Shown: in pieces, positions 14,471 to 35,449 of the stretch
How positions within the stretch are numbered: position 1 is the stretch's first letter
Layout: every line of letters starts with the position of its first letter
Assembly: GCA_944332555.1 (NCBI GenBank)
Contig: CALVKF010000005.1
Span: 1-53,293, forward strand
Source of the DNA: an uncultured Bacilli bacterium
Lineage (GTDB): Bacteria > Bacillota_I > Bacilli_A > RF39 > UBA660
Direction of reading: 5' to 3'
Length of the DNA: 53,293 nt
Program-made: the position numbers and the translations under genes
Notes under the pieces: generated by a model
What the model saw: only the letters and a program-made list of their open reading frames with translations
What the model was told of the DNA's origin: nothing
Database searches by the model: none

Positions 14471-14493
14471 TATAATTGTGCGTTTTTAAGCAA

Positions 14494-14520
14494 AAAAATG
14501 CAAAAATCGGTTGCATTTTT
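14494..14520. terminator. Hairpin between divergent units
   Basis: AAAAATGCAA, 7-nt loop, TTGCATTTTT. It separates the minus-strand envelope operon promoter from the plus-strand tRNA promoter. It has T-tracts on both strands but no gene ends here, so it may act as an insulator, or its right arm may serve as the -35 region of the tRNA promoter. Confidence 0.4.
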
Positions 14521-14539
14521 ATACTTTGTGTAATATAAT
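14511..14539 (+). promoter_or_regulatory. Promoter of the tRNA pair
   Basis: TATAAT at 14534-14539, with TTGCAT 17 nt upstream as a weak -35. The first tRNA begins 21 nt further on. Confidence 0.6.
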
Positions 14540-14560
14540 TATAGTGCATTAGGAAATTCT

Positions 14561-14637
14561 GCGCCCATAGCTCAACTGGATAGAGCGCTAGACTACGGAT
14601 CTAGAGGTTGGGAGTTCGAATCTCTTTGGGCGTACCA
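14561..14637 (+). tRNA. tRNA-Arg (anticodon ACG)
   Basis: Full cloverleaf of 77 nt. Acceptor GCGCCCA pairs with TGGGCGT (first pair G.U). Anticodon stem CTAGA/TCTAG has loop CTACGGA. The T arm has GTTCGAATC, and CCA is encoded. The ACG anticodon would be read as ICG after deamination by TadA. Confidence 0.97.
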
Positions 14638-14651
14638 TTTTTAAAGATTTT

Positions 14652-14728
14652 CGAGAAGTAGCACAATTTGGTAGTGCACTACATTTGGGATGTAGGGGTT
14701 GCAGGTTCAAATCCTGTCTTCTCGACCA
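14652..14728 (+). tRNA. tRNA-Pro (anticodon TGG)
   Basis: 77 nt. Acceptor CGAGAAG/CTTCTCG, D stem GCAC/GTGC, anticodon stem CTACA/TGTAG with loop TTTGGGA, T stem GCAGG/CCTGT, CCA encoded. It lies 14 nt after tRNA-Arg and shares its transcript. Confidence 0.97.
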
Positions 14729-14740
14729 TTTATGTATTTT

Positions 14741-14761
14741 AGTCCGATATGGACTTTTTTT
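14741..14761 (+). terminator. Terminator of the tRNA pair
   Basis: AGTCC-GATAT-GGACT followed by a run of T, 12 nt after the tRNA-Pro CCA. Confidence 0.85.
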
Positions 14762-14829
14762 ATGTCCCAAACAAATTCTCTACTACTACAAATTTATTTT
14801 CTTAAAATGCCCAAAAAGATTCTTATAAA

Positions 14830-15549
14830 TCATTTAAACACCGGAGTATATATATCTTTCAAGTCTTCTTCAGCTATAGCAAAATCAATTCCATGATTAT
14901 GAATTTGTCCTTTTCTTGGTCCACTTAAAAATGTTCCTATTTTAAAACGCATTGTAACTTTGCCCTTTTCAATTGCTTTTAAAAAATTATCAAACTTAAC
15001 ATTTTTATAAAAGAAAATACGATAATACCAATAATATTCAACATTATCAATTTTTTTAGTACAACATTTTACTAAAGCTAACTTTTGTAATTTTAAATAT
15101 ACTCTTTCTTTCAAAAGTTCAAAAGTCCACCATATGTCTTTAGAAACTAAATTATAAAATCTGTCAAAAATTAACAAAACAACATTCTCATTTTGCCAAT
15201 CGACAAATATTTGAAAATAATATCCATTATAACGATGTTTAGTAATTGCGGATAATTCAGTTAAAAATTTTTGCTTATTAACACCATACTGTTCAACTAG
15301 ATTTTGAATTGCAAAAAGATATTTTCCATCAGGATTAGCAGTAAACAAAGCAATTTTTGTTTTACTATAACCTTTTTTAGTTTTTAATTCAATTCCATTA
15401 TAATCCGGTAAAAAAAACTCATCTTGTTCTTTTCCTAATAAATGTTCAAAAGTTATACCACTATTATTCTTATCTTTATAACTTCTAACATATCCCATTT
15501 TCTTAATTTCTTTAAATTTTACATATAAATCGACCATAGATTTATCCAT
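14830..15549 (-). CDS. MvaI/BcnI-family restriction endonuclease
   Basis: 239 residues. It matches the MvaI/BcnI family: 'GYVRSYKDKNNSGITFEHLLGKEQDEFFLPDYNGIELKTKKGYS'. This gives the G-x-T-x-E-x-x-L-G motif (Glu), the P-D...E-L-K active site (Asp, Glu, Lys), and a following 'TKIALFTANPDGKYL'. These enzymes recognise CC(A/T)GG- or CC(C/G)GG-type sites; specificity cannot be read here. The ATG at 15549 follows GGAGG, while an upstream in-frame ATG at 15582 does not. No DNA methyltransferase is present within the window. It lies between the tRNA pair and the Ca2+ ATPase. Confidence 0.85.
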   Translation of the reverse strand: MDKSMVDLYVKFKEIKKMGYVRSYKDKNNSGITFEHLLGKEQDEFFLPDYNGIELKTKKGYSKTKIALFTANPDGKYLFAIQNLVEQYGVNKQKFLTELSAITKHRYNGYYFQIFVDWQNENVVLLIFDRFYNLVSKDIWWTFELLKERVYLKLQKLALVKCCTKKIDNVEYYWYYRIFFYKNVKFDNFLKAIEKGKVTMRFKIGTFLSGPRKGQIHNHGIDFAIAEEDLKDIYTPVFK

Positions 15550-15621
15550 TTTCCAAAACCTCCATGTGTACAATAATAACACAAAAATTATGTGTATTTT
15601 GTCGAACCATGTCGAAAATAT

Positions 15622-15648
15622 TAAAAAATTGCAAATTTTGCAATTTTT
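15622..15648 (-). terminator. Terminator of the Ca2+ ATPase gene
   Basis: Stem AAAAATTGCAAA with TTTGCAATTTTT; the stop codon (15647-15649) is inside the stem. The T-tract is the distal arm itself. Confidence 0.65.
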
Positions 15649-18205
15649 ATACTCCTAAAGCAATATGTTTTTTCTTTAATATGTATTTTCTTAAGAAATC
15701 TACCGGGAAAACTGTTAGAGCTAAAATAAATACTAATATAAGCTCATTTAATTCAAGTCCATAAGTTCTAAATATATCTCCCCCATTATAGATGATATAA
15801 AGTTGAGCAATAAAGATAAAGCTAAATATTGCTACAAATACTTTATTTTTAGATAAGTTAGCTAGTATATTTATTCTGGAAGTTCTAGCATTAAAAGCAT
15901 TAAATATTCCCATGAATATGAACATTGCAAAGTAAGCGGTCATTAAATATTCATTATTTTCACTAGGTCTAATAAATTCTCTTACTATAGGAAGTTTTAA
16001 AAATAATATACAAAGAATTGCACAATATAGACCCGTCCAGATGATTTCACTATACATGTACTTATTCATAATTGGAGTATTTTTTTTCTTTGGTGGTTCT
16101 TCCATATATTCTTCAAGTGGTGCTTCATATGAGAAGGCTATGCCTGAGAATGTGTCCATAATCATATTAAGCCAAAGCATTTGCACTATAGTAATTGGAG
16201 TCGATATGCCAATTAAAGAACCAACTATTGATAAAATTAAAGCACAAGTATTAACGGTTAATTGATAAATTATGAATTTACGAATACTTTTAAAAATTGT
16301 TCTGCCATATAAAATTGCTTTACTAATTGATAAGATATTATCATCAAGTATGACAATATCCGCTGCTTCTTTAGCAACATCAGTTCCACTTCCCATAGCA
16401 AAACCAACATTGGCTTTTTTTAGAGCTGGGGCATCATTTACTCCATCTCCAGTCATGCCTACAACTAAAGACATATCTTCAAGTATGTTTACCAAACGAC
16501 TTTTATCATTAGGTAAGGCTCTCGCAATAACTCTAATATCACTTAATTTTTCTTTTATTTCTTCATCACTCATTTTAGCAAGATCACTACTAGTTAAAAC
16601 AATTTGTTTATCATTAGTGATTAGACCAACCTCTTTAGCAATAGATGTGGCAGTATCTATTGCATCCCCTGTAATCATAATTGTTTGAATACCTGCACTT
16701 TTTATAAGTCTAATGCCTTCGAATGCTTCACGCCTTAACTCATCTTTAATATTAACAAAACCTAAAAATGTTAAATTATCCATGCTTTTGCCATATGCAA
16801 ATACTAAAACTCTACCGGATTTTTTAGTATATTCTTCTACTTTTCTTTTTATAATAGATGGGGAAAATAACTTACTTTCTTTATTATTGCTATTTAAGAT
16901 ATTTTTACATTTAGGTAAAATAACTTCCATTGCTCCTTTAATTAAAATAGTTCCATCATCTAAAGTAATACTACTATATTTTTTAGCACTATCAAATTCT
17001 TCTCTTTTAATTATTTTTGCATTTATGCTACTATTAATTGTAATATATTCAAGTATGGCTCTATCAGTAGAGTTTCCACCGATTACTTTAGTATCACTAA
17101 TCATACTAGCATTATTATAAAACAAAGACTTATAGACTAACCCATAAATAGGATATTTTTTTAACACATTAAAATCTTTAAATACTTTAAAATCCCCGCT
17201 GACAAATTCGGTTACTTTAAGGGTTCCAGTTGTAAGTGTTCCGGTTTTATCGGTAAGTAGTACATTTAGGCTGCCTGCCGTTTCAATACCTACTAGTTTT
17301 CGCACTAATACATTATCCTTAAGCATTTTTTTCATATTGCTTGATAAAACTAAAGTAATCATCATGGGAAGACCTTCAGGAACAGCTACAACTATAATTG
17401 TAACTGATAAAGTTAGAGCATAAATTAAATGATTGAACATTACAGGAAAATCAGTTAATGTCGCCATAATTAAATCATAATCAAAATTATTATCAATAAC
17501 TATACAAGAAAATAGATAAGAAATACTAGCAAGAATTGCTCCACAATATCCTATTTTGCTAATAGTTTTAGCAAGTCCTCTTAATTTTAATCTTAAAGGG
17601 CTTTCTGGAATATCACTTTGGAGTTCTTGGGAAATTTTACCCATAATGGTTTTATCTCCAACTAATTCTACTTGCATTTTGGCATTACCATTATATACAA
17701 CTGACCCCCGATATACTTTGCTATTAATTTTCTTTTTAGCTTCTTTTGATTCGCCATTTAAAGCTGATTCATCAACTGACAAATTACCACTAATAAGTAC
17801 GCCATCGGCAGGAATTTTATCTCCACTATTTAAAATTACAATATCTCCCACTACAACTTCACCAGTAGTTATTTCAACCACTTTGCCATTTCTAATAACT
17901 TTTACTTTACCTCTTAATGCATCACTTTGCAAACGATTAAAAGCTTGCTCAGAACCATATTCGGAGATAGTAGAAATAAATGATGCTAAAAATATGGCAA
18001 TAAGTATTCCTATTGTTTCAAACCAATCAAAATGTCTAAATAAAACTATGACCTTAATAGCTAAAGCAATAAGTAAAATTTTAATGATTGGATCAGCAAA
18101 AGATTCAAGCAATAAATGCCAAAAAGTATTCTTTTTAACCTCTGTTATTTCATTTGTACCATATTCTGTTCTGCTTTTAATTACTTCATTATCACTAAGT
18201 CCCAT
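15647..18205 (-). CDS. Calcium-translocating P-type ATPase
   Basis: 852 residues, full P2-type ATPase, pumping Ca2+ (perhaps Mn2+) out of the cell. In order: cation ATPase N-domain ('LSDNEVIKSRTEYGTNEI'), A-domain with the loop 'SALNGESKEAKKK' (TGES-like, here NGES), M4 with VAVPEGLP, phosphorylation site LLTDKTGTLT, hinge TGDGVNDAPALKKANVG, and M6 'LWLNMIMDTFSGIAF' with the Asn and Asp expected for Ca2+ binding. The ATG at 18205 has GGGAGGA upstream. The -10 (TATACT, 18226-18231) lies between this start and the 39-bp repeat, so the -35 region would fall in the repeat. Confidence 0.93.
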   Translation of the reverse strand: MGLSDNEVIKSRTEYGTNEITEVKKNTFWHLLLESFADPIIKILLIALAIKVIVLFRHFDWFETIGILIAIFLASFISTISEYGSEQAFNRLQSDALRGKVKVIRNGKVVEITTGEVVVGDIVILNSGDKIPADGVLISGNLSVDESALNGESKEAKKKINSKVYRGSVVYNGNAKMQVELVGDKTIMGKISQELQSDIPESPLRLKLRGLAKTISKIGYCGAILASISYLFSCIVIDNNFDYDLIMATLTDFPVMFNHLIYALTLSVTIIVVAVPEGLPMMITLVLSSNMKKMLKDNVLVRKLVGIETAGSLNVLLTDKTGTLTTGTLKVTEFVSGDFKVFKDFNVLKKYPIYGLVYKSLFYNNASMISDTKVIGGNSTDRAILEYITINSSINAKIIKREEFDSAKKYSSITLDDGTILIKGAMEVILPKCKNILNSNNKESKLFSPSIIKRKVEEYTKKSGRVLVFAYGKSMDNLTFLGFVNIKDELRREAFEGIRLIKSAGIQTIMITGDAIDTATSIAKEVGLITNDKQIVLTSSDLAKMSDEEIKEKLSDIRVIARALPNDKSRLVNILEDMSLVVGMTGDGVNDAPALKKANVGFAMGSGTDVAKEAADIVILDDNILSISKAILYGRTIFKSIRKFIIYQLTVNTCALILSIVGSLIGISTPITIVQMLWLNMIMDTFSGIAFSYEAPLEEYMEEPPKKKNTPIMNKYMYSEIIWTGLYCAILCILFLKLPIVREFIRPSENNEYLMTAYFAMFIFMGIFNAFNARTSRINILANLSKNKVFVAIFSFIFIAQLYIIYNGGDIFRTYGLELNELILVFILALTVFPVDFLRKYILKKKHIALGV

Positions 18206-18234
18206 ATGCTTGTCCTCCCAAAACAAGTATATGA

Positions 18235-18273
18235 ATCTTAATTTAAAAAAATGTAGATTTTTATTCTACATTT
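18235..18273. repeat. 39-bp direct repeat, copy 1 (cassette edge, terminator)
   Basis: Identical over 39 bp to 23819-23857 in the same orientation. It contains the inverted repeat AAATGTAGA/TCTACATTT with a 7-nt loop and a T-tract for minus-strand transcripts. The last two codons and the TAG of the PfkB-SIS gene (GAA ATG TAG) are part of it. Confidence 0.97.
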
Positions 18274-20221
18274 CACCTTTATAAAAATAAATATTCATTG
18301 CATCATCAGAATATTTTGGTTTTGATACATCGATGTCTAGTATTTTACCAATATAATAAACGATAAATTGTGATGCAATTAAAAGATCAAATTCCGCAAG
18401 TATTCCATTATATCTACTTTCAATAATTAAATTCTTATCTTTCAAATATTTAATTAATTCTACTTCATATTTACTAGTAGATTTTTGTTTAAAATAAATG
18501 GAATATATGTTATTTAAATTTTCATAATTAATGAATCTTCCATGAGAAAAATTCTTTTTTTCATGAATTATACAATTAAATACACCAGATTCAATAATTT
18601 TACTCTCTAAATCATAACAAGCACTATCAGTATAGTCTCCTCGGAAAATATTTATTAAATTGTGTTTTTTCATTTTATTTATAATTTCTTTGTTCAAAAT
18701 TTGATTCAAATAATTCTTCCAATAAGTCATAGATTCTTTGATAAAGTTATTTATATCAAATGTACTATCAACTATATTATAGTAATATTTCAAAAATATC
18801 GCTGCAGGTACTACTGCTCCTTCAAATGATAAAAACCCTCTTTCTTTTCCTTTATTTGTTGATGTTTTATAACATAAAATGTTTTTCTTTGTTATTCCTG
18901 TTTTTAAAACTATATTTTTAATATCTCCTTTAGTAATAATATACATATTTTTCTTATCAAAATCTTTAACACTATTAATAATATCATTAGTTGTGCCAGA
19001 ATAAGAAAATAAAATAACTTTATTTATATTTTGATTATTTCGATATACTACATCCCTAGGATATAAAGCATAGGTGTTACAGCCATATAATAAATTAATA
19101 ATTTTAGATGCAAAATAAGCTCCAGCATAGGAACCACCTGTTCCAATAAACAAACAATTATCATTTTCATTAAAACCTATATTATTCACCATTTTACTAG
19201 CAGAAGAATTAAGAGCATTAATAATCCTAGATTCCAAATTATTAATGTTTATATTGCATCTTTTAATAGTTTTTCTTTTTATATAAATAAAATTATCACA
19301 AGCACAACAATTATCCATTTTCTTTATTTTAAACAATGTATTAATATGTCCTCTAGCACCCATAACAGATACCACTTTAGAAGTTAATTTATTAGAATTT
19401 TCATACCATTTTCTAAATAAATTACTATTATATTTAAAATTATTTTTAATAGCATCTTTTATTATGCTAGAAATAAAAGCATCACCAGCCCCAGTAGAAT
19501 CAACAACTTTTCCTTTATAAATCAAATCAAAATTATACTCTTTACCACTTTCTATAAATGTAGCCCCATTTTCACCTCGAGTTATACTCATAAATTTGGG
19601 TTTAAGTAAATTATATAACTCTATATCATCCTTTAATTTTAATCTATTTAATAAATATTTACTAACTCTTTCATTAAAATTAATTATTTCAAACTTATTT
19701 GCTAACTTATCAATTATCTCTTGATTAGACAAGACTTCAAATTCAAAATACTGTCCTAAATCAATTATTTTTTTATTATCAGTTTTATCAATAATTGTTT
19801 GATTTTTATTATTTAAATTATCAAATATTAAAATATCGTCATGTTTAATATTATCAATAATATTTTTTATATCAATTAAACTTTCTTCATACCATTTTTT
19901 ATTTTGACAAAATGGACATCTTTTCTTGGAAATAAAGGTTAATTTACCATCATTATCAAAATAAGATACATGAAAAGCACGAGTTTTAACATTATCTAAC
20001 ATTTTTATATTATCTATATCTACACCTAGTTTTTTTAAACTTTCAATTGCTATTTGCCCTTGAATATCATTACCACATACTCCAAAAACTGAAACAGGTA
20101 TTTTCATTTTTGCTAAATTAGCAATAATGTTATGAGATGTCATTCCTCCATTTATTCCCAATAATTTTTGATCTTTGTAATAATAATCAACTACTAAATC
20201 ACCAATACCTACTACTCTCAT
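18266..20221 (-). CDS. PfkB-family sugar kinase fused to a SIS (sugar isomerase) domain
   Basis: 651 residues. Residues 1-300 form a ribokinase/PfkB kinase: 'GIGDLVVDYYY', substrate-side GGMTSHN (25-31), and the anion hole with catalytic Asp DSTGAGDAF (241-249, D247). Residues about 325-651 form a tandem SIS region: FIGTGGSYAGAYFA, FSYSGTTND (405-413), and a second half ending 'KILDIDVSKPKY', like the GlmS/AgaS/FrlB group. Two Cys clusters, CPFC (102-105) and CCAC (305-308), are unusual and might bind zinc. The kinase-SIS pairing recalls FrlD-FrlB (fructosamine 6-kinase plus deglycase). Its ATG overlaps the upstream TGA (ATGA). Confidence 0.85.
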   Translation of the reverse strand: MRVVGIGDLVVDYYYKDQKLLGINGGMTSHNIIANLAKMKIPVSVFGVCGNDIQGQIAIESLKKLGVDIDNIKMLDNVKTRAFHVSYFDNDGKLTFISKKRCPFCQNKKWYEESLIDIKNIIDNIKHDDILIFDNLNNKNQTIIDKTDNKKIIDLGQYFEFEVLSNQEIIDKLANKFEIINFNERVSKYLLNRLKLKDDIELYNLLKPKFMSITRGENGATFIESGKEYNFDLIYKGKVVDSTGAGDAFISSIIKDAIKNNFKYNSNLFRKWYENSNKLTSKVVSVMGARGHINTLFKIKKMDNCCACDNFIYIKRKTIKRCNININNLESRIINALNSSASKMVNNIGFNENDNCLFIGTGGSYAGAYFASKIINLLYGCNTYALYPRDVVYRNNQNINKVILFSYSGTTNDIINSVKDFDKKNMYIITKGDIKNIVLKTGITKKNILCYKTSTNKGKERGFLSFEGAVVPAAIFLKYYYNIVDSTFDINNFIKESMTYWKNYLNQILNKEIINKMKKHNLINIFRGDYTDSACYDLESKIIESGVFNCIIHEKKNFSHGRFINYENLNNIYSIYFKQKSTSKYEVELIKYLKDKNLIIESRYNGILAEFDLLIASQFIVYYIGKILDIDVSKPKYSDDAMNIYFYKGEM

Positions 20222-22557
20222 TTCACTAATCTCCTTTTATATTCTCCAACTTCACTATATTCATTAAAATCATGATTTTTTATTAAACACTCTATTATCT
20301 TTTTCCTATTTAAATCAAACACACCTAATGTATCAGTATAATTAATAGTACCATTTTCATGCTTCCATTCATTATCTTTCCAACTATAAGGACTATTAAA
20401 ACATAAACCATATATATAATCAAAAAACAAATGATAATCAATGGCTGCCGGATTATCTAAAAACATTTGATTAATTCTATTAATACTAGGATATCTAACA
20501 ATACAAATGTTTTTAACGTGAATATCACAATCATATAAAGAGTTAATAGCTAACTGTAATGTTTTCCCAGTTAAAACATTATCATCAAACAAATCAACAG
20601 TTAATCCTTTAAAAAAACTTGAATTTATTAAACCACCCAAATCATTTATATTAAAATTTCTCAAATCAATAAGTTGTTTATTTGTATAACCAGATACTTT
20701 TTTATTAAATTTTAAAAGAAATAGTTTTTCAATTTTATTTTGATTTATTATTTTAGTTAATATTGGCAACTCTATGCCACCATAACTTAGTCCGCACGCA
20801 CTGCTAACTTCATTATTGTTGCTTTTTTCCTTATATAAAGACACTGCTACATAATTTTCTCCAAAATTGTCAATTTCTCTATAAGCTCTATAATCTTTTG
20901 AATAATCCGCTTTTTCTTCATTATTAATCTCAATTTTCAAGTTATCTTCCAAAATAATTTTTGTATTAATTATATTTCTAACAATCTCATCTTTACTTAT
21001 TATGTATTGTTGGCGAAAACATATTTCACTCATCATTTTATCAACTTCAAACAAGGAATTATAAATATTAAAAATTTGTTTTTCTTTACTTGAAGAAATA
21101 TCTAACAAAATATTATTATCATAATAATTTGAAAACAAATTATGATTTAACAAAACAAGTAGTACGTTTCTACAATTATCTAAAATACCTAGTAACATTT
21201 TTTTGTTAATTTGATAATTTAAATTATCGACTATTGAAACCGCCTGTATTGAATTGTTAAAAAAAATTAAATAATTTTGATACCAATTCAATATATTATT
21301 TTTGGATGTAACATCAACTCCATTATTACTTATTCGATTTGATATAAAATAATAATAAGTATTAGAGCCTCGCAAAAGGTAATTATTATCATCTCTAATT
21401 GAATAAATTTGATTCCCGTTAAATGATGTCCCCCATAATTCTTTTAAAGGATTATTTTCTAATAGTTCCCATTCATACATAGGTATTTTAACACTTCCAC
21501 TAAACTTATCAAATAAATCATCTATACCATTACATTCATTAAAGTTTTTATTAATAATCTCATTATATTTATTTAATAATTTTTTTCTGCCCAATACAAT
21601 ATTTTTTTCTATATTAGCAAATTGTCGTTGATAAGTAAGTTTATCAGCTTTTTCCAAACACACTGTAGGCAAAATTTTAGCACTTTTTATCAACTGAAGT
21701 GTGGCATCTACTCCTTTTATTATATTACCATATTCATCAAATACAGGAAAACAGGAATTTATAGAACCATTTATTTTATCTACACTATATCCTTGGTTAC
21801 AATTAAGCATTGAATAATCATTTCCACGTAAATCACCACAGTCACCAACTCTCATCATTGAATTTTTAGGTACACCTATTATTTCTTCTACTCTTTCAAT
21901 AGCCTTATCTTTAGTAGTAGTGCCTATTTGAATAACTGCTTTATTTTTATACATACCTCTAGTTAAATTAATTCCATGAAAATTATTATCTTGTATAAAG
22001 GTTTCAATACTATCAAACACCAAATTTATCTCTTTTTTTTCATTTGTATTAAATACAATTCTAATATTTATAATTTCAGCAGTTTTTAAATCTTTAGAAT
22101 ATGTAATATTAAATAATCCATTATATGAATAATTTATTTTTATATTATTAATCATTTTATTTACTTTTAACAATTGATTTAATTCTTCTTTTGTAGAAAC
22201 ATAAACATTTTCATTTAAAAATTCTTCTTTAGATGTATTTTTACTATAAAATAATCTGGCCCCATCATTAGTCAAAACATATATTCTTTTTATATCATTA
22301 CCAGTTATATTTTCAGCATATTTAACATGCTGATATATATCATTTTTCAAATCATTCAGTCCAGTTTCACCACGCCCAGTAATAAATACTACTGGGACTT
22401 TTTTCTTTAATAAATTTATAATCATTTCTATCGCTCTATCATCAATTGACTTTGAATTTTTAACCGTTAAAGTACCATCAATATCAAAACAAACAGCATT
22501 ATATTTTTGCATTAAAGATTTTTGATAATTTTTAAACAATAATTCTTCTTTTTTCAT
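20218..22557 (-). CDS. HAD phosphatase - phosphoribosyltransferase fusion
   Basis: 779 residues. The N-terminal 280 residues are a Cof-type HAD phosphatase: CFDIDGTLT (D25, D27), FITGRGE (T60), a Lys in 'GTTTKDKAIERVEE', and MRVGDCGDLRGNDYSML (about 235-251). The middle (about 285-540) has no recognised motif. The C-terminus is a type I phosphoribosyltransferase: CGLSYGGIELP (like the ground loop of PyrE-type enzymes) and the PRPP loop LFDDNVLTGKTLQ (about 656-668). It would join or split a base/ribose-phosphate bond and remove a phosphate; the substrate is unknown. It is 5 nt downstream of the small HAD gene, overlaps the PfkB-SIS gene by 4 nt, and has AGAGGT before its ATG. Confidence 0.82.
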   Translation of the reverse strand: MKKEELLFKNYQKSLMQKYNAVCFDIDGTLTVKNSKSIDDRAIEMIINLLKKKVPVVFITGRGETGLNDLKNDIYQHVKYAENITGNDIKRIYVLTNDGARLFYSKNTSKEEFLNENVYVSTKEELNQLLKVNKMINNIKINYSYNGLFNITYSKDLKTAEIINIRIVFNTNEKKEINLVFDSIETFIQDNNFHGINLTRGMYKNKAVIQIGTTTKDKAIERVEEIIGVPKNSMMRVGDCGDLRGNDYSMLNCNQGYSVDKINGSINSCFPVFDEYGNIIKGVDATLQLIKSAKILPTVCLEKADKLTYQRQFANIEKNIVLGRKKLLNKYNEIINKNFNECNGIDDLFDKFSGSVKIPMYEWELLENNPLKELWGTSFNGNQIYSIRDDNNYLLRGSNTYYYFISNRISNNGVDVTSKNNILNWYQNYLIFFNNSIQAVSIVDNLNYQINKKMLLGILDNCRNVLLVLLNHNLFSNYYDNNILLDISSSKEKQIFNIYNSLFEVDKMMSEICFRQQYIISKDEIVRNIINTKIILEDNLKIEINNEEKADYSKDYRAYREIDNFGENYVAVSLYKEKSNNNEVSSACGLSYGGIELPILTKIINQNKIEKLFLLKFNKKVSGYTNKQLIDLRNFNINDLGGLINSSFFKGLTVDLFDDNVLTGKTLQLAINSLYDCDIHVKNICIVRYPSINRINQMFLDNPAAIDYHLFFDYIYGLCFNSPYSWKDNEWKHENGTINYTDTLGVFDLNRKKIIECLIKNHDFNEYSEVGEYKRRLVK

Positions 22558-22562
22558 ATGTA

Positions 22563-23078
22563 TTACCTCTTAATTAAAAATTCTAAACTTCTAACCCTTC
22601 CATGTGCGTTTTTATCAATAGTAGAATCAAATATTAATCCTGAACCACCATTTTCAATCCATTCTCTAATATTTTTTTCAGAATCATCAATAAGTAACTG
22701 ATTATTTGGAATAATAACTTGATACTTTTTTGATCCTGGCGGGACAAATAATACTGGACACATAATGTTCCTATTTTCTCTTAAATCTTCAATTTTCACT
22801 TTCATCTCATAAAGAGTATGAATTTTTGTTAAAATCGCAATTTTTGTTTTCATTTGTTCAAGTTCTTTTATTATTTCAACAGAATCATTAATTGAATTAG
22901 CCCCTCTAATAATATAATCCCATTCTTCAGGATTTAAATTTGCATATTCAAAGTACTTATCAAACTCACTTTTATTTTCATGATCTCGTAATCCTAATTC
23001 ATATTTCCTCTGTAGCATTCTTTCTTCTGAATCTAATATAACCCCATCAAAATCAATAAAAATATAATCATCCATCAT
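22563..23078 (-). CDS. Small HAD-superfamily phosphatase-like protein
   Basis: 171 residues. HAD motifs: FIDFDGVILDSEE (D9, D11), IAILTKIHT (Thr), a Lys in 'PPGSKKYQVII', and LLIDDSEKNI (acidic pair). The cap is short and helical (about 20-75). The size and order fit the 5'-nucleotidase/NT5C-like or NIF-like branch; the substrate is unknown. It has its own extended -10 promoter and AAGGAG before ATGATG, and begins the three-gene enzymatic operon of the cassette. Confidence 0.78.
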   Translation of the reverse strand: MMDDYIFIDFDGVILDSEERMLQRKYELGLRDHENKSEFDKYFEYANLNPEEWDYIIRGANSINDSVEIIKELEQMKTKIAILTKIHTLYEMKVKIEDLRENRNIMCPVLFVPPGSKKYQVIIPNNQLLIDDSEKNIREWIENGGSGLIFDSTIDKNAHGRVRSLEFLIKR

Positions 23079-23099
23079 AATTTTTTTCTCCTTGAAAAT

Positions 23100-23108
23100 A
23101 TTATATCA
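23100..23108 (-). promoter_or_regulatory. Extended -10 promoter of the cassette enzyme operon
   Basis: TGATATAAT on the minus strand, 21 nt before the HAD gene ATG and after the WYL regulator stop. The enzymes can thus be transcribed apart from the regulator. Confidence 0.6.
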
Positions 23109-23134
23109 CAGCAAAATGAAATATTTTGTCTTTA

Positions 23135-23725
23135 TTATTTTATATTAACAATTCTTTTTAATTCAAAATGTCTTATATCATTTCTCAACTCACAAAAAGC
23201 TGTTATATAATATTCATCTTTATATTTAAATAAATGCAGTGGATGAATTGTTCTTTTTGATTGTCTGCCATCAATATCATTATATATAATTTCAATTTTA
23301 TCATTTTTGTTGATGGCAGATTTAATTATTTTCTCTATTTCACCAGGCATATCAATATCTATATTAGAAATATATTTACTCTTTTCATCATAAATTGAAT
23401 ACATTTTTTTTGCCTTGTTTAAAAAATCTCTAAATTTTTCTACATATTCAAAGTTATTATGAGATAAAAAATTACATATGTTTTCTAATAACTGAATATC
23501 ATATTTATTAACATGTATATAATTTTTAACCTTATCAATCATAAAATATCCTCCGTTAGGGCCCTTAAATGTTTCAATAGCAATTCCATTATTACAAATT
23601 TCATTTTTATAATAGCGAATCATTCTTTCTGTTACTCCTATTTTTTTGGATAACTCTTTTAATGAATATATATTTCCCGTATTTAATAAATCTACCATAT
23701 ACATCATATTTAATAATTTTCCCAT
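23135..23725 (-). CDS. HTH-WYL transcriptional regulator
   Basis: 196 residues. An N-terminal helix-turn-helix of the DeoR/HTH_11 type ('NTGNIYSLKELSKKIGVTERMIRYYKNEI') is followed by a wing 'IETFKGPNGGYFM'. A C-terminal WYL-like domain follows ('KIEIIYNDIDGRQSKRTIHPLHLFKYKDEYYITAFCELRNDIRHFELKRI'), in which the literal W-Y-L triad is not kept. WYL domains sense ligands, in several cases nucleic acid or nucleotide-like, and often control defence or stress genes. ATG 23725 follows GAGGTGG. It is the first cassette gene, with its own promoter, and probably regulates the cassette. Confidence 0.85.
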   Translation of the reverse strand: MGKLLNMMYMVDLLNTGNIYSLKELSKKIGVTERMIRYYKNEICNNGIAIETFKGPNGGYFMIDKVKNYIHVNKYDIQLLENICNFLSHNNFEYVEKFRDFLNKAKKMYSIYDEKSKYISNIDIDMPGEIEKIIKSAINKNDKIEIIYNDIDGRQSKRTIHPLHLFKYKDEYYITAFCELRNDIRHFELKRIVNIK

Positions 23726-23748
23726 TTTTACCACCTCAATTACATAAT

Positions 23749-23757
23749 ATTATATCA
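23749..23757 (-). promoter_or_regulatory. Extended -10 promoter of the WYL regulator
   Basis: TGATATAAT on the minus strand, 23 nt before ATG 23725. The region between it and the 39-bp repeat (23758-23818) is very A+T-rich and could hold an operator, but no clear palindrome stands out. Confidence 0.6.
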
Positions 23758-23818
23758 CAAAACTTACTTTCACTTAATAACATAATACATTCTAATTATA
23801 ATTAATGCATACTTAATT

Positions 23819-23857
23819 ATCTTAATTTAAAAAAATGTAGATTTTTATTCTACATTT
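23819..23857. repeat. 39-bp direct repeat, copy 2 (clpC terminator, cassette edge)
   Basis: Identical to 18235-18273. Its hairpin AAATGTAGA/TCTACATTT plus T-tract stands about 20 nt after the ClpC-like gene's stop codon and would end that transcript. Confidence 0.97.
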
Positions 23858-28568: not shown

Positions 28569-30014
28569 CTAAAATACTAAAGTTATTAACTCTAAAACTA
28601 ACATATTGGCAACAGCAATAGTTAAAACTATTTTAAATGCCCATTTAAACCAAGTTGTATATTCAACTTTAGCTAAAGCAAGACCACCCATTATTGCTCC
28701 ACAAGTTGGAGTAATTAAATTAACTAGACCATTGGCAGCAACAAGCGTCATAATTGTTACTTCAACATTGTAACCTAAAGTACTTGCAAGACCACCCATG
28801 ATTGGAGTTGATAAGACTGCAAGACCACTAGATGATGGTACAAGTATTGATAAGACAACATGAAGCAAATAATTTAGTGGAACAAAAGCAAGTTCTGGTA
28901 AGTTGGAAAGTAAATCAGCAGAATTATAGATAATATAGTTATCTAAGTATGTTACTCCCATTAAGACACTTGCTCCACGAGCAACAGCAATTATTAAGAT
29001 AACTGCAATCATATCATTGGCACCATCAACGAATGTATCAACAATTTCTTTTTCTTTAAAGCGATTAATTATACCTATAATAATAGCCATTACAAAGAAC
29101 CAAACTGAAGCTTCAGCAAAGTACCAACCACCTAAAGATGTACCAGTAAGCCAGCCTGTAAATTTATCAAATATTGTTACATTAAAGTCTCCCCAAGGAA
29201 TAAAGCCAATAATCATGACTACAAATGTTAAACCAAGTAATATTAAAGTTATTCTTTGTTTAATACTTAATTTTACATCTTTTTTCTTATCTTTAGAATC
29301 TTCTTCTTTAATAAATTTCTTTTCCATTGCTTTTTGTTCTTGTAAAGATAGGAATGTTGAACCCTTATCTTCTTGAACTTTTTTAGCATAATTCATGACA
29401 AAGATAATTGATATTAAAAGAGTTGTAATCCATAAAATTAGGCCTGTAAATATTAATAAACCTTGATTAGCAGTAACACCTTCTGGTAAACTACTTACAG
29501 CAACACCAACCGCAAAAGGGTTAACTGTTGAACCTAAAACACCAGAACCAGCTCCTAATAAAACTATTGCTGAACCAACAATGGTATCATATCCAGCAGC
29601 AACCATTGTAGCAGCAAGTAAAACATAAAAGCCTACTGTTTCTTCTAGCATTCCATAAGTTGTACCTCCAACAGAAAAGATAAACATTAAAATAGGTATT
29701 AATACTATTTCGTTACCTTTTAGCTTTTTTACTAAAACTTTGATACCAGTTTCTAAAGCTCCTGTTTTATTGATAATTGCCAAAAACCCACCTAAAATTA
29801 AAATGAACACACATACATCAACTGCATCACTAAAGCCTAAGATTGGTGATAGTAAAAAGTCTGATAGTTTGGCTCCGACAGTACCACTACCATCAACAAG
29901 TATGCCATCAACAAACTGAGCATCAGGTAAAATGTGTGAAAATATCGCTAATATAATTATCAAAATAAAGATAATTGAAAAAGCAGATAACATAAATTTT
30001 TTCCTTTTAGCCAT
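28569..30014 (-). CDS. arcD: YfcC-family arginine/ornithine antiporter
   Basis: 481 residues and about 12 transmembrane helices. Motifs of the YfcC family (an ArcD-type exchanger group): 'FILILGGFLAIINKTGALETGI', 'FSVGGTTYGMLEETVGFY', 'GAGSGVLGSTVNPFAVGVA', 'LVPSSSGLAVLSTPIMGGLA' and 'GLVNLITPTCGAIMGGLALAKVEYTTW'. Its place directly after arcC (gap 2 nt) in an arcABC operon makes arginine-ornithine exchange the likely role; this exchange needs no extra energy. A charged cytoplasmic loop of about 45 residues lies in the middle (QEDKGSTFLSLQEQKAMEKK). GGAGG precedes the ATG. Confidence 0.85.
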   Translation of the reverse strand: MAKRKKFMLSAFSIIFILIIILAIFSHILPDAQFVDGILVDGSGTVGAKLSDFLLSPILGFSDAVDVCVFILILGGFLAIINKTGALETGIKVLVKKLKGNEIVLIPILMFIFSVGGTTYGMLEETVGFYVLLAATMVAAGYDTIVGSAIVLLGAGSGVLGSTVNPFAVGVAVSSLPEGVTANQGLLIFTGLILWITTLLISIIFVMNYAKKVQEDKGSTFLSLQEQKAMEKKFIKEEDSKDKKKDVKLSIKQRITLILLGLTFVVMIIGFIPWGDFNVTIFDKFTGWLTGTSLGGWYFAEASVWFFVMAIIIGIINRFKEKEIVDTFVDGANDMIAVILIIAVARGASVLMGVTYLDNYIIYNSADLLSNLPELAFVPLNYLLHVVLSILVPSSSGLAVLSTPIMGGLASTLGYNVEVTIMTLVAANGLVNLITPTCGAIMGGLALAKVEYTTWFKWAFKIVLTIAVANMLVLELITLVF

Positions 30015-30016
30015 TT

Positions 30017-30949
30017 TTATCCTCCTATTATTCTTGTGCCATTATTATTTTCTAGAGCTTCATTTGCTTTATCTAATGAAGTAATTATTGCATATTTATC
30101 TTTATCAACAAAGTTTAAGCAAGCTTCTATTTTAGGTAGCATACTGCCTTTGGCAAATTCGCCTTTTTCTATATATTTTAACGCTTCACTTTTCTTAATA
30201 GTATCTAAACCTATTTTATCTTTACTTAAATAATTTAGATATACTTTATCAACAGAGGTTAAAATAAGTAGTATATCAGCATCTATTAACTTAGCAAGTA
30301 AAGCACTTGATAAGTCTTTGTCTATTACAGCATCAATTCCTTCTAAAAGCTCTTTTTTATCTTTTTTGATAACAGGTATTCCACCACCCCCACAAGCAAT
30401 AACTAAAACATTTTCTTTTAAAAGTGTGGCTATTGCTCTTTTTTCAATAATATCTTTAGGTATCGGCGATGGCACTATTCGCCGATATCCAGCATCAGGA
30501 ATAAAAGTAAATTCATAGCCTTCTTCTTTTTTTAATTTTTGCATTTCTTCTTCTTTGTAATATGCTCCAATCGGTTTTGTCGGATTTTGGAAGGCAGGAT
30601 CACTTGAATCCACTAATACTTGTGTTATAACGGTTATACAATCTTTTTTTACTTTTTGTCTTTCCATTTCATCTTGCAGTGCTTGTTGCATTTGATAACC
30701 GATATAGCCTTGAGACATACTCCCACATTCTGCAAAAGGCATATGAGGAGTCTTTTTTTTAGCACTAGCATATTCCATTGCTAGAGCTATTTGACCAACT
30801 TGTGGTCCATTACCATGGGTAATTACAATATCATGGCCTTCTTTTATTAATTTAACGATAATTTTAGAAGCTTTTTCTAAATTATCCATTTGTATTTCCG
30901 GATTATCTCCGAGAGCATTTCCCCCAAGAGCAACTACTATTTTACTCAT
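30017..30949 (-). CDS. arcC: Carbamate kinase
   Basis: 310 residues. It makes ATP from carbamoyl phosphate in the last step of the arginine deiminase pathway. Amino acid kinase fold with '[10 protein letters not shown]', '[20 protein letters not shown]', '[22 protein letters not shown]', '[12 protein letters not shown]', '[11 protein letters not shown]' and '[14 protein letters not shown]', all typical. The ATG overlaps the arcB 3' end by 8 nt. Confidence 0.97.
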
Positions 30950-31940
30950 CTTTATCCTTTAGAGTAGCATACATTACCGCTTTTATAGTATGCATTCTAT
31001 TTTCGGCTTCATCAAAGACTTTAGAATATTTAGATCTAAATACTTCATCTGTTACTTCCATTTCTTTTAATCCAAATTTCTTGTAAATCTCTTCACCAAT
31101 TGTAGTATTTAAATCATGAAATGAAGGTAAGCAATGTAAAAATATTACATCTTGAGAAGCATTATTTAATACATTCATATTTACTTGATAATTCTTAAGT
31201 AAATTTAGCCGTTCTTCCCAAATATTATCTGCTTCTCCCATTGATACCCAAACATCTGTATATATACAATTGGCATCTTTAGTAGCCTTAATTATATCTT
31301 CTTCAAATTCAATTTGACAATTTGTTGATATAGCAATATCTTTACAAATATTAACTAAATTTTCATCTGGCCATAAACTTTTAGGGGCCGCAAGAGTATA
31401 ATTTACTCCTAGTTTGCTACAAGCAACCATTAAAGAATTAGCAACATTATTTCTACCATCACCACAAAAGACTAATTTTAGACCTTTAAGATGACCAAAG
31501 TTTTCTTTAATAGTTAAAAAATCAGCAAGCATTTGGGTTGGATGAAATTCATTAGTTAAACCGTTCCATACTGGAACACCGGCTGATGCAGCTAAATTTT
31601 CAACAATGCTTTGAGAAAATCCTCGATATTCTATTCCATCATACATTCTTCCTAATACTTTTGCAGTATCTTCAATGCTTTCTTTTTTACCCATTTGACT
31701 AGATTGGGGATCTAAAAATGTAACATGCATTCCTAAATCATAAGCCGCAACTTCAAAGGCACATCTAGTTCTAGTTGATGTTTTTTCAAATAAAAGAGCA
31801 ATATTTTTACCTTTTAAGTATTCATGAGGAATATTATTTTTCTTCTTATTTTTAAAGTCAGCACTTAAATCTAATAAATATTCAATTTCTTCTTTAGTAT
31901 AATCTAATAGTTTTAAAAAACTTCTTTGTGATAAATTCAT
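30942..31940 (-). CDS. arcB: Ornithine carbamoyltransferase (catabolic)
   Basis: 332 residues. It splits citrulline into ornithine and carbamoyl phosphate. Motifs: carbamoyl phosphate loop [15 protein letters not shown], 'EYRGFSQ', '[13 protein letters not shown]', ornithine-side 'DVWVSMGE' and catalytic HCLPSFHD. The context between arcA and arcC marks it as the catabolic enzyme. ATG 31940 follows GGGAGG and overlaps the arcA stop by one base (TAATG). Confidence 0.97.
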
Positions 31941-33181
31941 TAATCCTCCCGATATAATGGCATACTCATACATCTAGGACCACCACGACCGCGGGAAAGT
32001 TCAGCACTAGACATTTCAATTACTTTAATACCATGTGACCTTAATACTTCATTAGTAATATTGTTCCGATTATATACAACTACAACACCAGGGGCAATAC
32101 ATAAAGTATTTGTTCCATCGTTCCATTGTTCTCTTTGACTAGCAACATCATCACCACCAGCACACGGAATAATTGTAACTTTTACTCCTAGATATTTAGT
32201 TAAAATATTTTCTAGAGTATCATTTATTTCTTTAACATTTAAATCTTCATCACTATTAGGGTCATTTCCTTCAGTAATTTCAAATACTTGCAATGTTCCC
32301 ATAATTCCTGGATGATATGTAAATTTATCAACATCTATTTGAGTAAATACTGTATCTAGATGCATAAATGCTCTTGATTCAGGAATATTAAAAGCTAATA
32401 TAGTATCTATTTTACAATCTTTATCTTTAAATAAATTTTTAGCTAGTTTATCAATTGCTCCTGCTTCGGTTCTTTGGGAAATACCTATGGCTAGGACATG
32501 ATCATTTAAATTTAGAACATCCCCACCTTCAATATGCCAATCTAAATTACGATCATAATAGCGATCAACTTTAGCTTTAAATTTTGGATGATATTTAAAA
32601 ATATAATCTGCGTAGATGGTTTCTCTGTTTCTTGTAACAGAATACATCTTATTTAAAACTATACCACTACCTACACTAGCAAATGGATCACGCGTAAAAT
32701 ACAGATTAGGCATTGGTTCAACAATAAAATCTGTTTCATCAGTTACTAAATCAACTAATGATTTTTCCATTACCCTTTTACTTTTGTCAAGTTCATATAT
32801 TTGAACTCCTTCCATAGTCTTTAAAACAAATTCCTTTGTTTCTTCAATACTCATCAAATAATCAAATACTAATTCACGATATTTGGGAGTATTAACACCC
32901 GCTTCACTGATGAATTGTCTTAAAAATTTTTCTTTAATTTCGGGATTATAATCTAATGTTTCAGTCATTAAATCTTCAAGATAATAAACTTTAACATCAT
33001 TATCTCTTAAAATTTGAACAAATTCATCATGTTCCGCTTGGGCTACTTTGAGATAAGGAATATCATCAAATAACAAGCGATGTAGTGTATCGGGAGTTAA
33101 ATTAAGTAATTCCTTACCTGGACGGTGAACTAAAACTTCTTTTAATGGTTTTATTTCACTCTTAACATTAATTACACTCAT
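31940..33181 (-). CDS. arcA: Arginine deiminase
   Basis: 413 residues. It hydrolyses arginine to citrulline and ammonia. Guanidine-modifying fold with '[17 protein letters not shown]', '[10 protein letters not shown]', 'HIEGGDVL', '[12 protein letters not shown]' (catalytic His) and the terminal '[14 protein letters not shown]' with nucleophile Cys404. First gene of arcA-arcB-arcC-arcD. AGGAGGAG precedes the ATG, with an extended -10 promoter further up. Confidence 0.97.
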
Positions 33182-33204
33182 ATTCTCCTCCTTATTATAC
33201 TTTA

Positions 33205-33213
33205 ATTATAACA
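33205..33213 (-). promoter_or_regulatory. Extended -10 promoter of the arc operon
   Basis: TGTTATAAT on the minus strand, 23 nt before the arcA ATG. A second TATAAT at 33194-33199, with TTGTCC 17 nt upstream, would start transcription inside the ribosome site and is less likely. No convincing ArgR box was seen. Confidence 0.6.
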
Positions 33214-33220
33214 CAAGGAC

Positions 33221-33251
33221 AAAATAAAAACATCTAAAATATAGATGTTTT
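33221..33251 (-). terminator. Terminator of the amino acid ABC operon
   Basis: AAAACATCTA-TATTT-TAGATGTTTT followed by TATTTT on the minus strand. The stop codon of the ATPase gene is in the stem. It insulates the arc operon from the ABC genes. Confidence 0.85.
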
Positions 33252-33969
33252 ACATTAAACTGTCTAAAAATTCTTTTAATTTAGAACTTTTAGGATTTTT
33301 AAATATTTCTTGAGGTGTTCCTTCTTCAATAATTTCTCCATCATCCATAAAAATTATTCGACTAGCAAAGTTTTTAGCAAAAGCCATTTCATGGGTTACA
33401 ACAATCATTGTTAGACCACTTTTACCTAACTCTTCCATTAATTCTAAAACTTCTTTTTTCATTTGTGGGTCTAGTGCTGAAGTAGGTTCATCAAAAAGCA
33501 TTAATTTGGGTTCTAAAATTAAAGCTCTAGCAATTGCTACTCTTTGCATTTGACCACCAGATAATTCTTTGGGATAGTTAGCCTCTTTATCTTCTAAGTG
33601 AATTTTTAATAGTAATTCTCTAGCTTTTTTAATTGCTTCTTCTTTAGTTAATAAGTTTAATTTTACTGGAGCTAAAATAATGTTTTCTAAAACTGTTAAG
33701 TGAGGAAATAAATTAAATTGTTGAAAAACCATACCCATTTTAATTCTGATTTTATATAATTCTTCGTTATCATCTAGAGGAATTCCTTCAAATAAGACTT
33801 TTCCTTTTGTAGGTTTTTCAATATGATTGATACAGCGAAGAAGTGTTGATTTACCACAACCACTGGGGCCAATAATAACTAATCTTTCTTTTTCATTTAC
33901 TTCTAAATTTATTTTTTTTAATACTTTTGTTTTACCAAAACTTTTTTCTAAATTTTTAACTACTAACAT
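33250..33969 (-). CDS. Polar amino acid ABC transporter, ATP-binding protein
   Basis: 239 residues, GlnQ/ArtP-type ATPase. Walker A GPSGCGKSTLLRC, Q-loop VFQQFNLFPHLTVLENI, signature LSGGQMQRVAIARAL, Walker B LMLFDEPTSALDP and switch His 'VTHEMAF'. It powers the importer formed with the next two genes. It overlaps the permease gene by 14 nt and has AAGGAAG upstream. The neighbouring arc operon suggests arginine as substrate, but glutamine or another polar amino acid cannot be ruled out. Confidence 0.95.
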   Translation of the reverse strand: MLVVKNLEKSFGKTKVLKKINLEVNEKERLVIIGPSGCGKSTLLRCINHIEKPTKGKVLFEGIPLDDNEELYKIRIKMGMVFQQFNLFPHLTVLENIILAPVKLNLLTKEEAIKKARELLLKIHLEDKEANYPKELSGGQMQRVAIARALILEPKLMLFDEPTSALDPQMKKEVLELMEELGKSGLTMIVVTHEMAFAKNFASRIIFMDDGEIIEEGTPQEIFKNPKSSKLKEFLDSLM

Positions 33970-34642
33970 TATTTAACTTCCTTTCCATTAAACTTACTAA
34001 TTTGCTTAAAATTAAAGTTAGTATGAAATAAATTACGGCAACAATTATAAGAGGGAAGAAATAATCATAAGTTCTTGATGCTATAATATCACTTGCTTTA
34101 GTTAATTCAACAATTCCAATATAAGCTCCAACTGAGGTTTCTTTTACTAAAGTAATAAATTCATTACCTAACGCCGGCAGGATGTTTTTTATAGCTTGGG
34201 GCAAAATGATATAACGCATTATTTGATAATATTTAAAGCCAATTGATGCTCCCGCTTCTATTTGACCTTTATCAATCGAGTTTATTCCTGCTCGAATTAC
34301 TTCAGCAACATAAGCACCAGAATTAATACCAAAAGCTAAAATACCTACTAAAACAATGTTTATATCAACACTAGCAAATATTACATAATAAATAATCATT
34401 AACTGTAAAATTGAGGGAGTTCCTCTAATTATATTGACATAGCTTTTAGCTAAGAAATTTAAAAACTTAAATTTTTTACTATAATCACAATAATTTCTAA
34501 TTAAAGCAATAAATATTCCAATAATACATCCTAAAATTACCGCAAAAAAGGCAATTATTAATGTATTTTTAAGACCTTCTAAAAAGAAGAGATAACGATT
34601 ATCAACAATAAGAGTATCATATAAATTTTCAAACAACTTCAT
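33956..34642 (-). CDS. Polar amino acid ABC transporter, permease
   Basis: 228 residues, HisM/GlnP-type. Four or five transmembrane helices; the cytoplasmic coupling (EAA) loop reads 'EAGASIGFKYYQIMRYIILPQAIKNILPALGNE'. The 'NIIRGTPSILQLMIIYYVIF' stretch is typical of this group. AAGGAG precedes the ATG. It probably works as a homodimer, since there is one permease gene. Confidence 0.94.
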   Translation of the reverse strand: MKLFENLYDTLIVDNRYLFFLEGLKNTLIIAFFAVILGCIIGIFIALIRNYCDYSKKFKFLNFLAKSYVNIIRGTPSILQLMIIYYVIFASVDINIVLVGILAFGINSGAYVAEVIRAGINSIDKGQIEAGASIGFKYYQIMRYIILPQAIKNILPALGNEFITLVKETSVGAYIGIVELTKASDIIASRTYDYFFPLIIVAVIYFILTLILSKLVSLMERKLNNVSS

Positions 34643-34650
34643 AAAACTCC

Positions 34651-35361
34651 TTAAGAATGATTAATTATATATTCTTCTATTTTTCCTTCATCAAGTAATT
34701 GTTGTAATACTTCATTTATGGCATCGAGTAATTCTTTATTACCTTTTTTAACAATCATTCCATAAGAATCTGTAAATAACTCAGTATCTAATATTTTAAG
34801 ATTGGTATTTTCTTTTAAAATAGCTTTAGCTGGTAGTTCATCCATAACAACACAATCAGCTTTACCGGTTTTTAAATCTTCGATCGCCGCAAGGTACTTT
34901 TTTTGGCGAATAATTTTAGCATTTTCATAATTTTGTGTTACATAAGAATCACCAACACTACCTAATTGAACAGCAATTGTTAAATTTTCTAAGTCTTCTT
35001 TCTTAGAAATATTTGAATTTTCTCTTACCACAATTATTTGCTTACTAGTTGCATAGTTTATTGTAAAATCAACTTCTTCTGCTCTTTCTTCATTATAGCT
35101 AATACCTGCAGCTCCAAAATCAGCTTTACCAGTTTTTACTTCATTTACTATTGAATCAAAAGCCACATCTTTAATTTCTAATTCTTTGCCTAATTTTTTA
35201 GCAATTTCCCGAGCAATGTCAACATCTACTCCCACAATTTCACCATTTTCATAATATTCATAAGGAGCAAAACCCGCTTCAGTTACCATGACTAATGTAT
35301 CTTTATTACCACAGCCACTTATAAATAATAAACTAATTAATAAAACAACAATTTTTTTCAT
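34651..35361 (-). CDS. Extracellular amino acid-binding lipoprotein
   Basis: 236 residues, SBP family 3. Lipoprotein signal with lipobox LFISGC (Cys17). Then the binding-protein fold: 'GFAPYEYYENGEIVGVDVDIAREIAKKLGKELE', 'FDSIVNEVKTGKADFGAAGISYNEERAEEVDFTINY' and 'GKADCVVMDELPAKAIL'. The last part 'EVLQQLLDEGKIEEYI' is typical. It is the first gene of the importer operon. Confidence 0.95.
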   Translation of the reverse strand: MKKIVVLLISLLFISGCGNKDTLVMVTEAGFAPYEYYENGEIVGVDVDIAREIAKKLGKELEIKDVAFDSIVNEVKTGKADFGAAGISYNEERAEEVDFTINYATSKQIIVVRENSNISKKEDLENLTIAVQLGSVGDSYVTQNYENAKIIRQKKYLAAIEDLKTGKADCVVMDELPAKAILKENTNLKILDTELFTDSYGMIVKKGNKELLDAINEVLQQLLDEGKIEEYIINHS

Positions 35362-35384
35362 TTACTACACCTACTTTCATTTAA

Positions 35385-35393
35385 AGTATATCA
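35385..35393 (-). promoter_or_regulatory. Extended -10 promoter of the ABC importer operon
   Basis: TGATATACT on the minus strand, 23 nt before the ATG of the binding-protein gene. Confidence 0.55.
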
Positions 35394-35419
35394 AAAAATG
35401 ATAAAAATTTCTACTAAAT

Positions 35420-35449
35420 AAAAGAAACTTTACATGAATGTAAAATTTC
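35420..35449 (-). terminator. Terminator after the lysS-linked unknown gene
   Basis: GAAATTTTACA-TTCA-TGTAAAGTTTC (one mismatch) followed by TTTTATTT. The stem touches the stop codon. Confidence 0.75.

Follow-up and report, generated by a model that had tools for sequence, protein, structure and literature searches.

Genome comparison indicates that uncultured gut bacteria of one group repeatedly swap genes at a single place, immediately upstream of the gene of a calcium pump. The widespread layout in the genus consists of the gene of an AAA+ ATPase, a small membrane-protein ORF, its terminator and the gene of a P-type Ca2+-ATPase. In several lineages, cargo separates this terminator from the promoter of the ATPase gene and is itself framed by two copies of the resident terminator. 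This single locus, followed in about thirty related species, offers empty sites, varied cargo and a scar that recurs in three unrelated terminator sequences. Many bacterial hotspots of gene turnover lack an integrase. At the present site, cargo probably enters by an integrase-free exchange, in which homologous recombination at a block formed by the terminator and the ATPase 5' end adds cargo and duplicates the resident terminator.

A four-gene cassette between two terminator copies

The window is the whole stretch of DNA analysed, 53,293 nucleotides long, from the genome designated G000; all genomes compared here are metagenome-assembled genomes (MAGs). All genes at the locus lie on the minus strand, where the order is the ClpA/ClpC-like AAA+ gene, a first terminator copy (T1), four cassette genes, a second copy (T2) and the Ca2+-ATPase gene (Table 1). 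An earlier note on this DNA had described perfect 39-bp direct repeats at both edges of the cassette, each a terminator, and both points are confirmed. T1 and T2 are identical at 39 of 39 bases, in the same orientation; outside them, no 22-mer of the 53-kb window is exactly repeated in direct orientation. Each copy, reading AAATGTAGAATAAAAATCTACATTTTTTTAAATTAAGAT from 5' to 3', folds as an intrinsic terminator: a 9-bp stem (TGTAGA/TCTACA plus A-T pairs), a 7-nt loop and a T7 tract (-6.9 kcal/mol, z -3.0). A simple terminator scan missed it because the stem has only two G-C pairs. The last gene of the cassette has its stop codon inside T2, in the 5' arm of the hairpin. With up to three mismatches, the 39-mer has two matches in the whole 1.33-Mb assembled genome, both at the cassette flanks, while shuffled sequence gives no match. 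The terminator does not recur widely in the genome.

Table 1. Features of the variable site, listed in minus-strand order
Feature	Position in the window	Strand	Basis or remark
Flank: ClpA/ClpC-like AAA+ ATPase, 698 aa	23877..25973	-	adjoins the Ca2+-ATPase gene in many genus members
T1: 39-bp copy, hairpin and T7 tract	23819..23857	-	19 nt past the AAA+ ORF; repeat search and folding
Cargo gene 1: HTH and WYL-domain regulator, 199 aa	23135..23734	-	PF13280, 4e-15
Cargo gene 2: HAD-superfamily phosphatase, 171 aa	22563..23078	-	TIGR01509, weak match, below cut-off
Cargo gene 3: HAD-IIB with C-terminal phosphoribosyltransferase (PRTase)-like motif (VDLFDDNVLTGKT), 779 aa	20218..22557	-	PRTase by motif only
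Cargo gene 4: PfkB-family sugar kinase fused to a SIS (sugar isomerase)-like region, 651 aa	18266..20221	-	family matches
T2: identical 39-bp copy, followed by the conserved ATPase leader	18235..18273	-	repeat search and folding
Conserved ATPase leader (TCATATACTTGTTTTGGGAGGACAAGCAT)	18206..18234	-	fixed right border of the variable site across the genus
Flank: P-type Ca2+-ATPase	15647..18226	-	likely true start ATG at 18205, behind GGGAGG

Their families and one motif suggest that the four cassette genes belong to a pathway for a sugar-phosphate- or phosphoribosyl-derived metabolite. The AlphaFold model of the 779-aa protein is of low confidence (pLDDT 63) and was left out of fold searching. 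To note, a partial paralogue of this protein, about 30% identical and restricted to the C-terminal part, is encoded on contig C12 of the same genome (L144:8254-9675). None of the four genes received a defence annotation beyond generic WYL matches. No recombinase was found among them either, as the earlier note had stated, which fits homologous recombination. The cassette operon is rare: it occurs in 4 of 30 genus genomes and, in a class-wide sample of 296 genomes, in two (that of the window and one from another genus of the family), and its genes were not found in viral contigs or in plasmid and phage collections. The foreign composition that had been attributed to the four genes is a weak sign. 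They have 21.7-26.9% GC and 27.5-36.2% N+I+K, against 27.5 +/- 4.2% and 25.5 +/- 4.4% for the other genes of the window, but the neighbouring AAA+ gene (22.6% GC, 34.8% N+I+K) and several others look alike. Base composition was rejected as an indication of recent import.

The site in related genomes

Thirty genus genomes were scanned with a gapped hairpin pattern. An ungapped pattern allowing three mismatches had overlooked the terminator of G001, G002 and G003 because the loop varies in length, and the gapped one recovered them. The hairpin was found at the ATPase locus; two further cases, in G004 and G020, have a longer loop, the one in G004 lying behind the AAA+ gene at a contig end. This G004 assembly contains two near-identical copies of an AAA+ and DcuC gene pair (L082 and L083, contigs C14 and C29), each followed by a TGTAGA/TCTACA-type hairpin, which reflects either a duplication or a mixture of strains. 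The AAA+ and Ca2+-ATPase genes are close to each other in the window and in G002, G003, G007, G008, G011, G012, G014, G018, G019 and G039, and lie on separate contigs in G001, G013, G017 and G022.

Both an empty site with a single copy of the terminator and other cargo between two copies, for which the earlier note had looked to relatives, do exist, and the variable site bounded by a terminator is thereby borne out. The empty site is that of G002, formed by the AAA+ gene, the small ORF (MDKRQK...SVE*), one terminator and the ATPase gene. The last codons of the small ORF make up the 5' arm of the hairpin, which identifies it as the native terminator of this ORF. In G013, the small ORF, T1 (here again the ORF's own terminator), the same cassette as in the window, T2 and the ATPase gene follow one another; over most of its length, the cassette differs by 2-11% between the two genomes, and the ATPase by about 6%. 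No cassette is present in the G022 assembly, though its ATPase is equally close to that of the window. In G001, the small ORF and T1 precede a different cargo (a transposase remnant with a Mu-type C-terminal domain, secreted proteins and two ABC/FtsX genes), followed by a terminator copy, about 180 bp, a decayed copy and the ATPase gene. G003 and G022 keep the terminator before the ATPase gene behind yet other cargo, only its right half in G022. The cassette of G012 and G043 resides elsewhere in the genome and has no such terminator: its PfkB-SIS proteins stop at almost the same position (KGEI*, NGDL*) and other sequence comes after. T2 was therefore fused to the cassette at the stop codon.

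The same arrangement recurs with terminators of unrelated sequence. In G005 and G044, the terminator of the small ORF is unrelated to the 39-mer (AAGTAAATTAAATAATTAATTTGCTTTTTT), and a second copy, 92% identical over 52 nt, directly precedes the ATPase gene. The cargo includes an ABC transporter and, ahead of the second copy, a sigma factor, a membrane protein and an AbiQ-like toxin; there are exactly two copies per genome, their order being read across contig ends. A third terminator sequence (GCCGAT...ATCGGCATTTT) occurs on both sides of a gene of 701 aa in G039, exactly twice in the genome and with a short match of about 18-25 nt. G007 has an empty site with one copy, the equivalent of that in G002 with another terminator. 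Each of the five two-copy genomes (G000, G013, G005, G044, G039) has its terminator at the two flanks only, and the shared stretch measures, depending on the genome, about 18-25, 30, 39 or 52 nt. Left and right borders score 18-38 against each other within a genome or clade, versus 7-16 across clades. When direct repeats of the ATPase-proximal segment were sought at 83 ATPase loci, G000, G013, G005 and G044 stood far above 60 shuffles and G039 only slightly above them; no comparable terminator repeats were seen at the other loci, mostly outside the genus. One of these, L187 (ATPase 64% identical), gave a strong match that is not terminator-like, a perfect 33-bp direct repeat (TACCTAGGTATTACTACTGAAGGTACGTCTTTT) with copies 450 bp apart, at about -450 and within -130 of the ATPase gene. 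The AbiQ-like toxin, a weak match, is found at the same locus in distant species (L230:2215-2952 and L081:3154-3902), adjoined by two tandem repeats of about 46 nt reminiscent of a type III toxin-antitoxin system.

Routes of cargo entry

The toxin module indicates which partner owns the terminator. Between G017 and G044 it is 91.5% identical over 749 bp, against about 78% for the ATPases, and each copy lies beside its own species' type of terminator. The terminator therefore belongs to the resident site and not to the cargo: it is a boundary of the cassette, as the earlier note had it, but originally that of the small membrane-protein ORF. The duplicated block can also extend beyond it. After T1 of G001, the leader and start of the ATPase gene reappear (18 of 19 nt), together with an exact, inverted 53-bp internal piece of that gene. 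G044 has, between the ABC-transporter cargo and the toxin cargo (contig order inferred), a fragment of the ATPase that breaks off near residue 292, and the two copies of the stretch around the ATPase start are 96% identical. It follows from these pieces that the block can include the ATPase 5' end, which favours integration driven by homology over recognition of a hairpin. The homologous recombination between terminator copies suggested in the earlier note fits in kind, yet the terminator is resident and the block can be larger.

The probable course would thus start with donor DNA from a relative, brought by transformation or present as a circle or tandem-duplication intermediate, that pairs via the terminator/ATPase-5' block. 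Integration by RecA-type homologous recombination, through a single crossover or one-sided homology, would duplicate this block; the spare ATPase 5' end would be lost afterwards. Both terminators would be retained, it is proposed, because they insulate three units from each other: the AAA+ gene with the small ORF, the cargo and the pump. For the window genome and G013, which have no ATPase remnant beside T1, this large-block route would be extrapolated from the other genomes. A block of 30-39 bp is short for efficient RecA recombination, and cargo-bearing relatives without an intact duplication are also found (G012, G019, G003, G022). Transposition may have brought some cargo genes, given the transposase remnants with a Mu-type C-terminal domain in G001.

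The window genome would have undergone a further rearrangement, which placed the AAA+ gene right next to T1 and carried the small ORF off to contig C12 (L143:13846-14295). There it lies behind a CDF transporter and ends in AGTGTAGAATAA, the left arm of the terminator, with no intact terminator after it; next comes a 278-aa family whose members lie behind the AAA+ gene in G001, G017 and G022. A breakpoint of this rearrangement was thus at the terminator as well. It could be asked whether the two copies are a mere by-product of such an event, terminator copies having recombined and exchanged their flanks around cargo that happened to be present. The displaced ORF would suit this reading, which is nevertheless very unlikely: the two copies of G013, G044 and G039, where the small ORF still precedes T1, are left unexplained. 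No other genome shows the AAA+/T1 junction of the window genome, and with MAGs throughout, the 39-bp repeat might have led the assembler to join an AAA+ contig to the cassette. Such an error is extremely unlikely, since the separate MAG G013 presents terminator, cassette, terminator and ATPase in this order, the missing terminator behind the small ORF leaves no alternative T1 junction in G000, and the AAA+ gene is near the ATPase gene in G002, G007, G014 and others.

The ATPase pieces of G001 and G044 and the transposase remnant of G001 would equally suit a tandem duplication of the terminator/ATPase 5' region by slippage or unequal crossing-over, followed later by illegitimate or IS-mediated insertion of cargo. 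This order of events is unlikely: in at least three lineages, two events would have had to coincide, and no cargo-less tandem, with or without an intervening ATPase piece, was seen among the genomes examined. IntI recognises folded attC, and a trans-acting tyrosine recombinase might similarly recognise the terminator hairpin and insert or excise circular cassettes there. In the window, G013 and G039, each border has a precise hairpin; the three hairpin sequences, unrelated to one another, would be compatible with recognition of shape; and several tyrosine recombinases were found in every genome checked (tandem trios in some). These points speak for such an enzyme. It is distinctly improbable all the same: the ATPase pieces between or beside the terminators of G001 and G044 put the junction outside the hairpin, the window cassette has no recombinase, the shared stretch varies in length, and the hairpins are not dispersed over other parts of these genomes. 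The wider idea that terminator hairpins of any sequence serve as exchange points, in a structure-directed, integron-like manner with the enzyme encoded elsewhere in the genome, is highly improbable. A transposon with a fixed target-site duplication was rejected because the repeats vary in length (about 18-52 nt); the window cassette has no transposase either. Nor does the site fit an integrative element with att duplication, as the insert has no integrase and the border sequences are of three unrelated kinds, or an integron or gene cassette (no integrase among the locus genes, tyrosine recombinases being encoded elsewhere).

Known exchange systems and neighbouring rearrangements

Minimal mobile elements of Neisseria are whole-gene cassettes, variable between strains or species, located between two conserved genes, devoid of mobility genes and exchanged by homologous recombination (Saunders and Snyder 2002, as presented in PMC3898611). 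Likewise, the region described here is flanked by two conserved genes (those of the AAA+ protein and the Ca2+-ATPase) and holds different whole-gene cassettes or none; mobility genes are absent from the window cassette, the G001 cargo having a transposase remnant. The minimal mobile element is defined in that account by its conserved flanking genes, whereas here the cargo has a copy of the resident terminator at either end, with ATPase 5' pieces in some genomes. Hotspots flanked by core genes likewise display high gene turnover and evidence of homologous recombination at their flanks, and 27% of them contain no integrase or transposase (Oliveira et al. 2017, PMC5635113). That paper reports no terminator signature (the word terminator is absent from it), and its model is a double recombination, which replaces the border rather than duplicating it. 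In pneumococcus, a short, partly repeated donor fragment can produce a duplication with a hybrid repeat border through RecA pairing (Johnston et al. 2013, PMC3784515). The duplications of such merodiploids are large, whereas the block duplicated here is tiny, and what is seen of the process is its outcome only. With integron cassettes the site shares cargo bounded by hairpin-forming repeats, but there is no attI/IntI context, each unit has several genes and its own regulator, and the hairpin is the site's own terminator.

The earlier note knew of no described element with this layout. This has to be narrowed: recombinase-free exchange of cassettes has already been described (PMC3898611, PMC5635113), whereas the terminator-duplication signature looks undescribed, no description of it around cargo having been found in the open-access literature searched. 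The site probably works like a minimal mobile element to which duplication of the resident terminator is added; the pattern is real and recurrent, and its probable mechanism is the homologous recombination deduced from comparisons of MAGs. Genome-wide searches for the scar can reveal recombinase-free insertions in other bacteria and could separate additive (single-crossover) from replacement events. It also suggests that intergenic terminators would be safe landing sites, at which both transcription units stay insulated after insertion.

Beside the site, positions 28700-36400 of the window (7.7 kb) are 98-100% identical in nucleotide sequence to G022, with sharp borders; most of the remaining sequence is about 90% identical, and the DcuC-p231-AAA+ block next to it about 82%. 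This segment reads as a recent homologous import between species, in line with the recombination proposed for the site. ComEC, present in 10 of 10 genomes checked, is the one gene family that points to possible competence in these bacteria. Downstream of the ATPase gene, positions 14487-15582 harbor an MvaI/BcnI-type restriction endonuclease that is not at this place in G013 and G022, and an adjoining segment of about 290 bp is inverted relative to these two genomes. The tandem trios of tyrosine recombinases are RIT-like and lie on contigs C61 and C62 of G000, C17 of G013, C57 and C85 of G017, and C118 of G022; RIT elements have been described for alpha- and beta-proteobacteria (PMC2864759).
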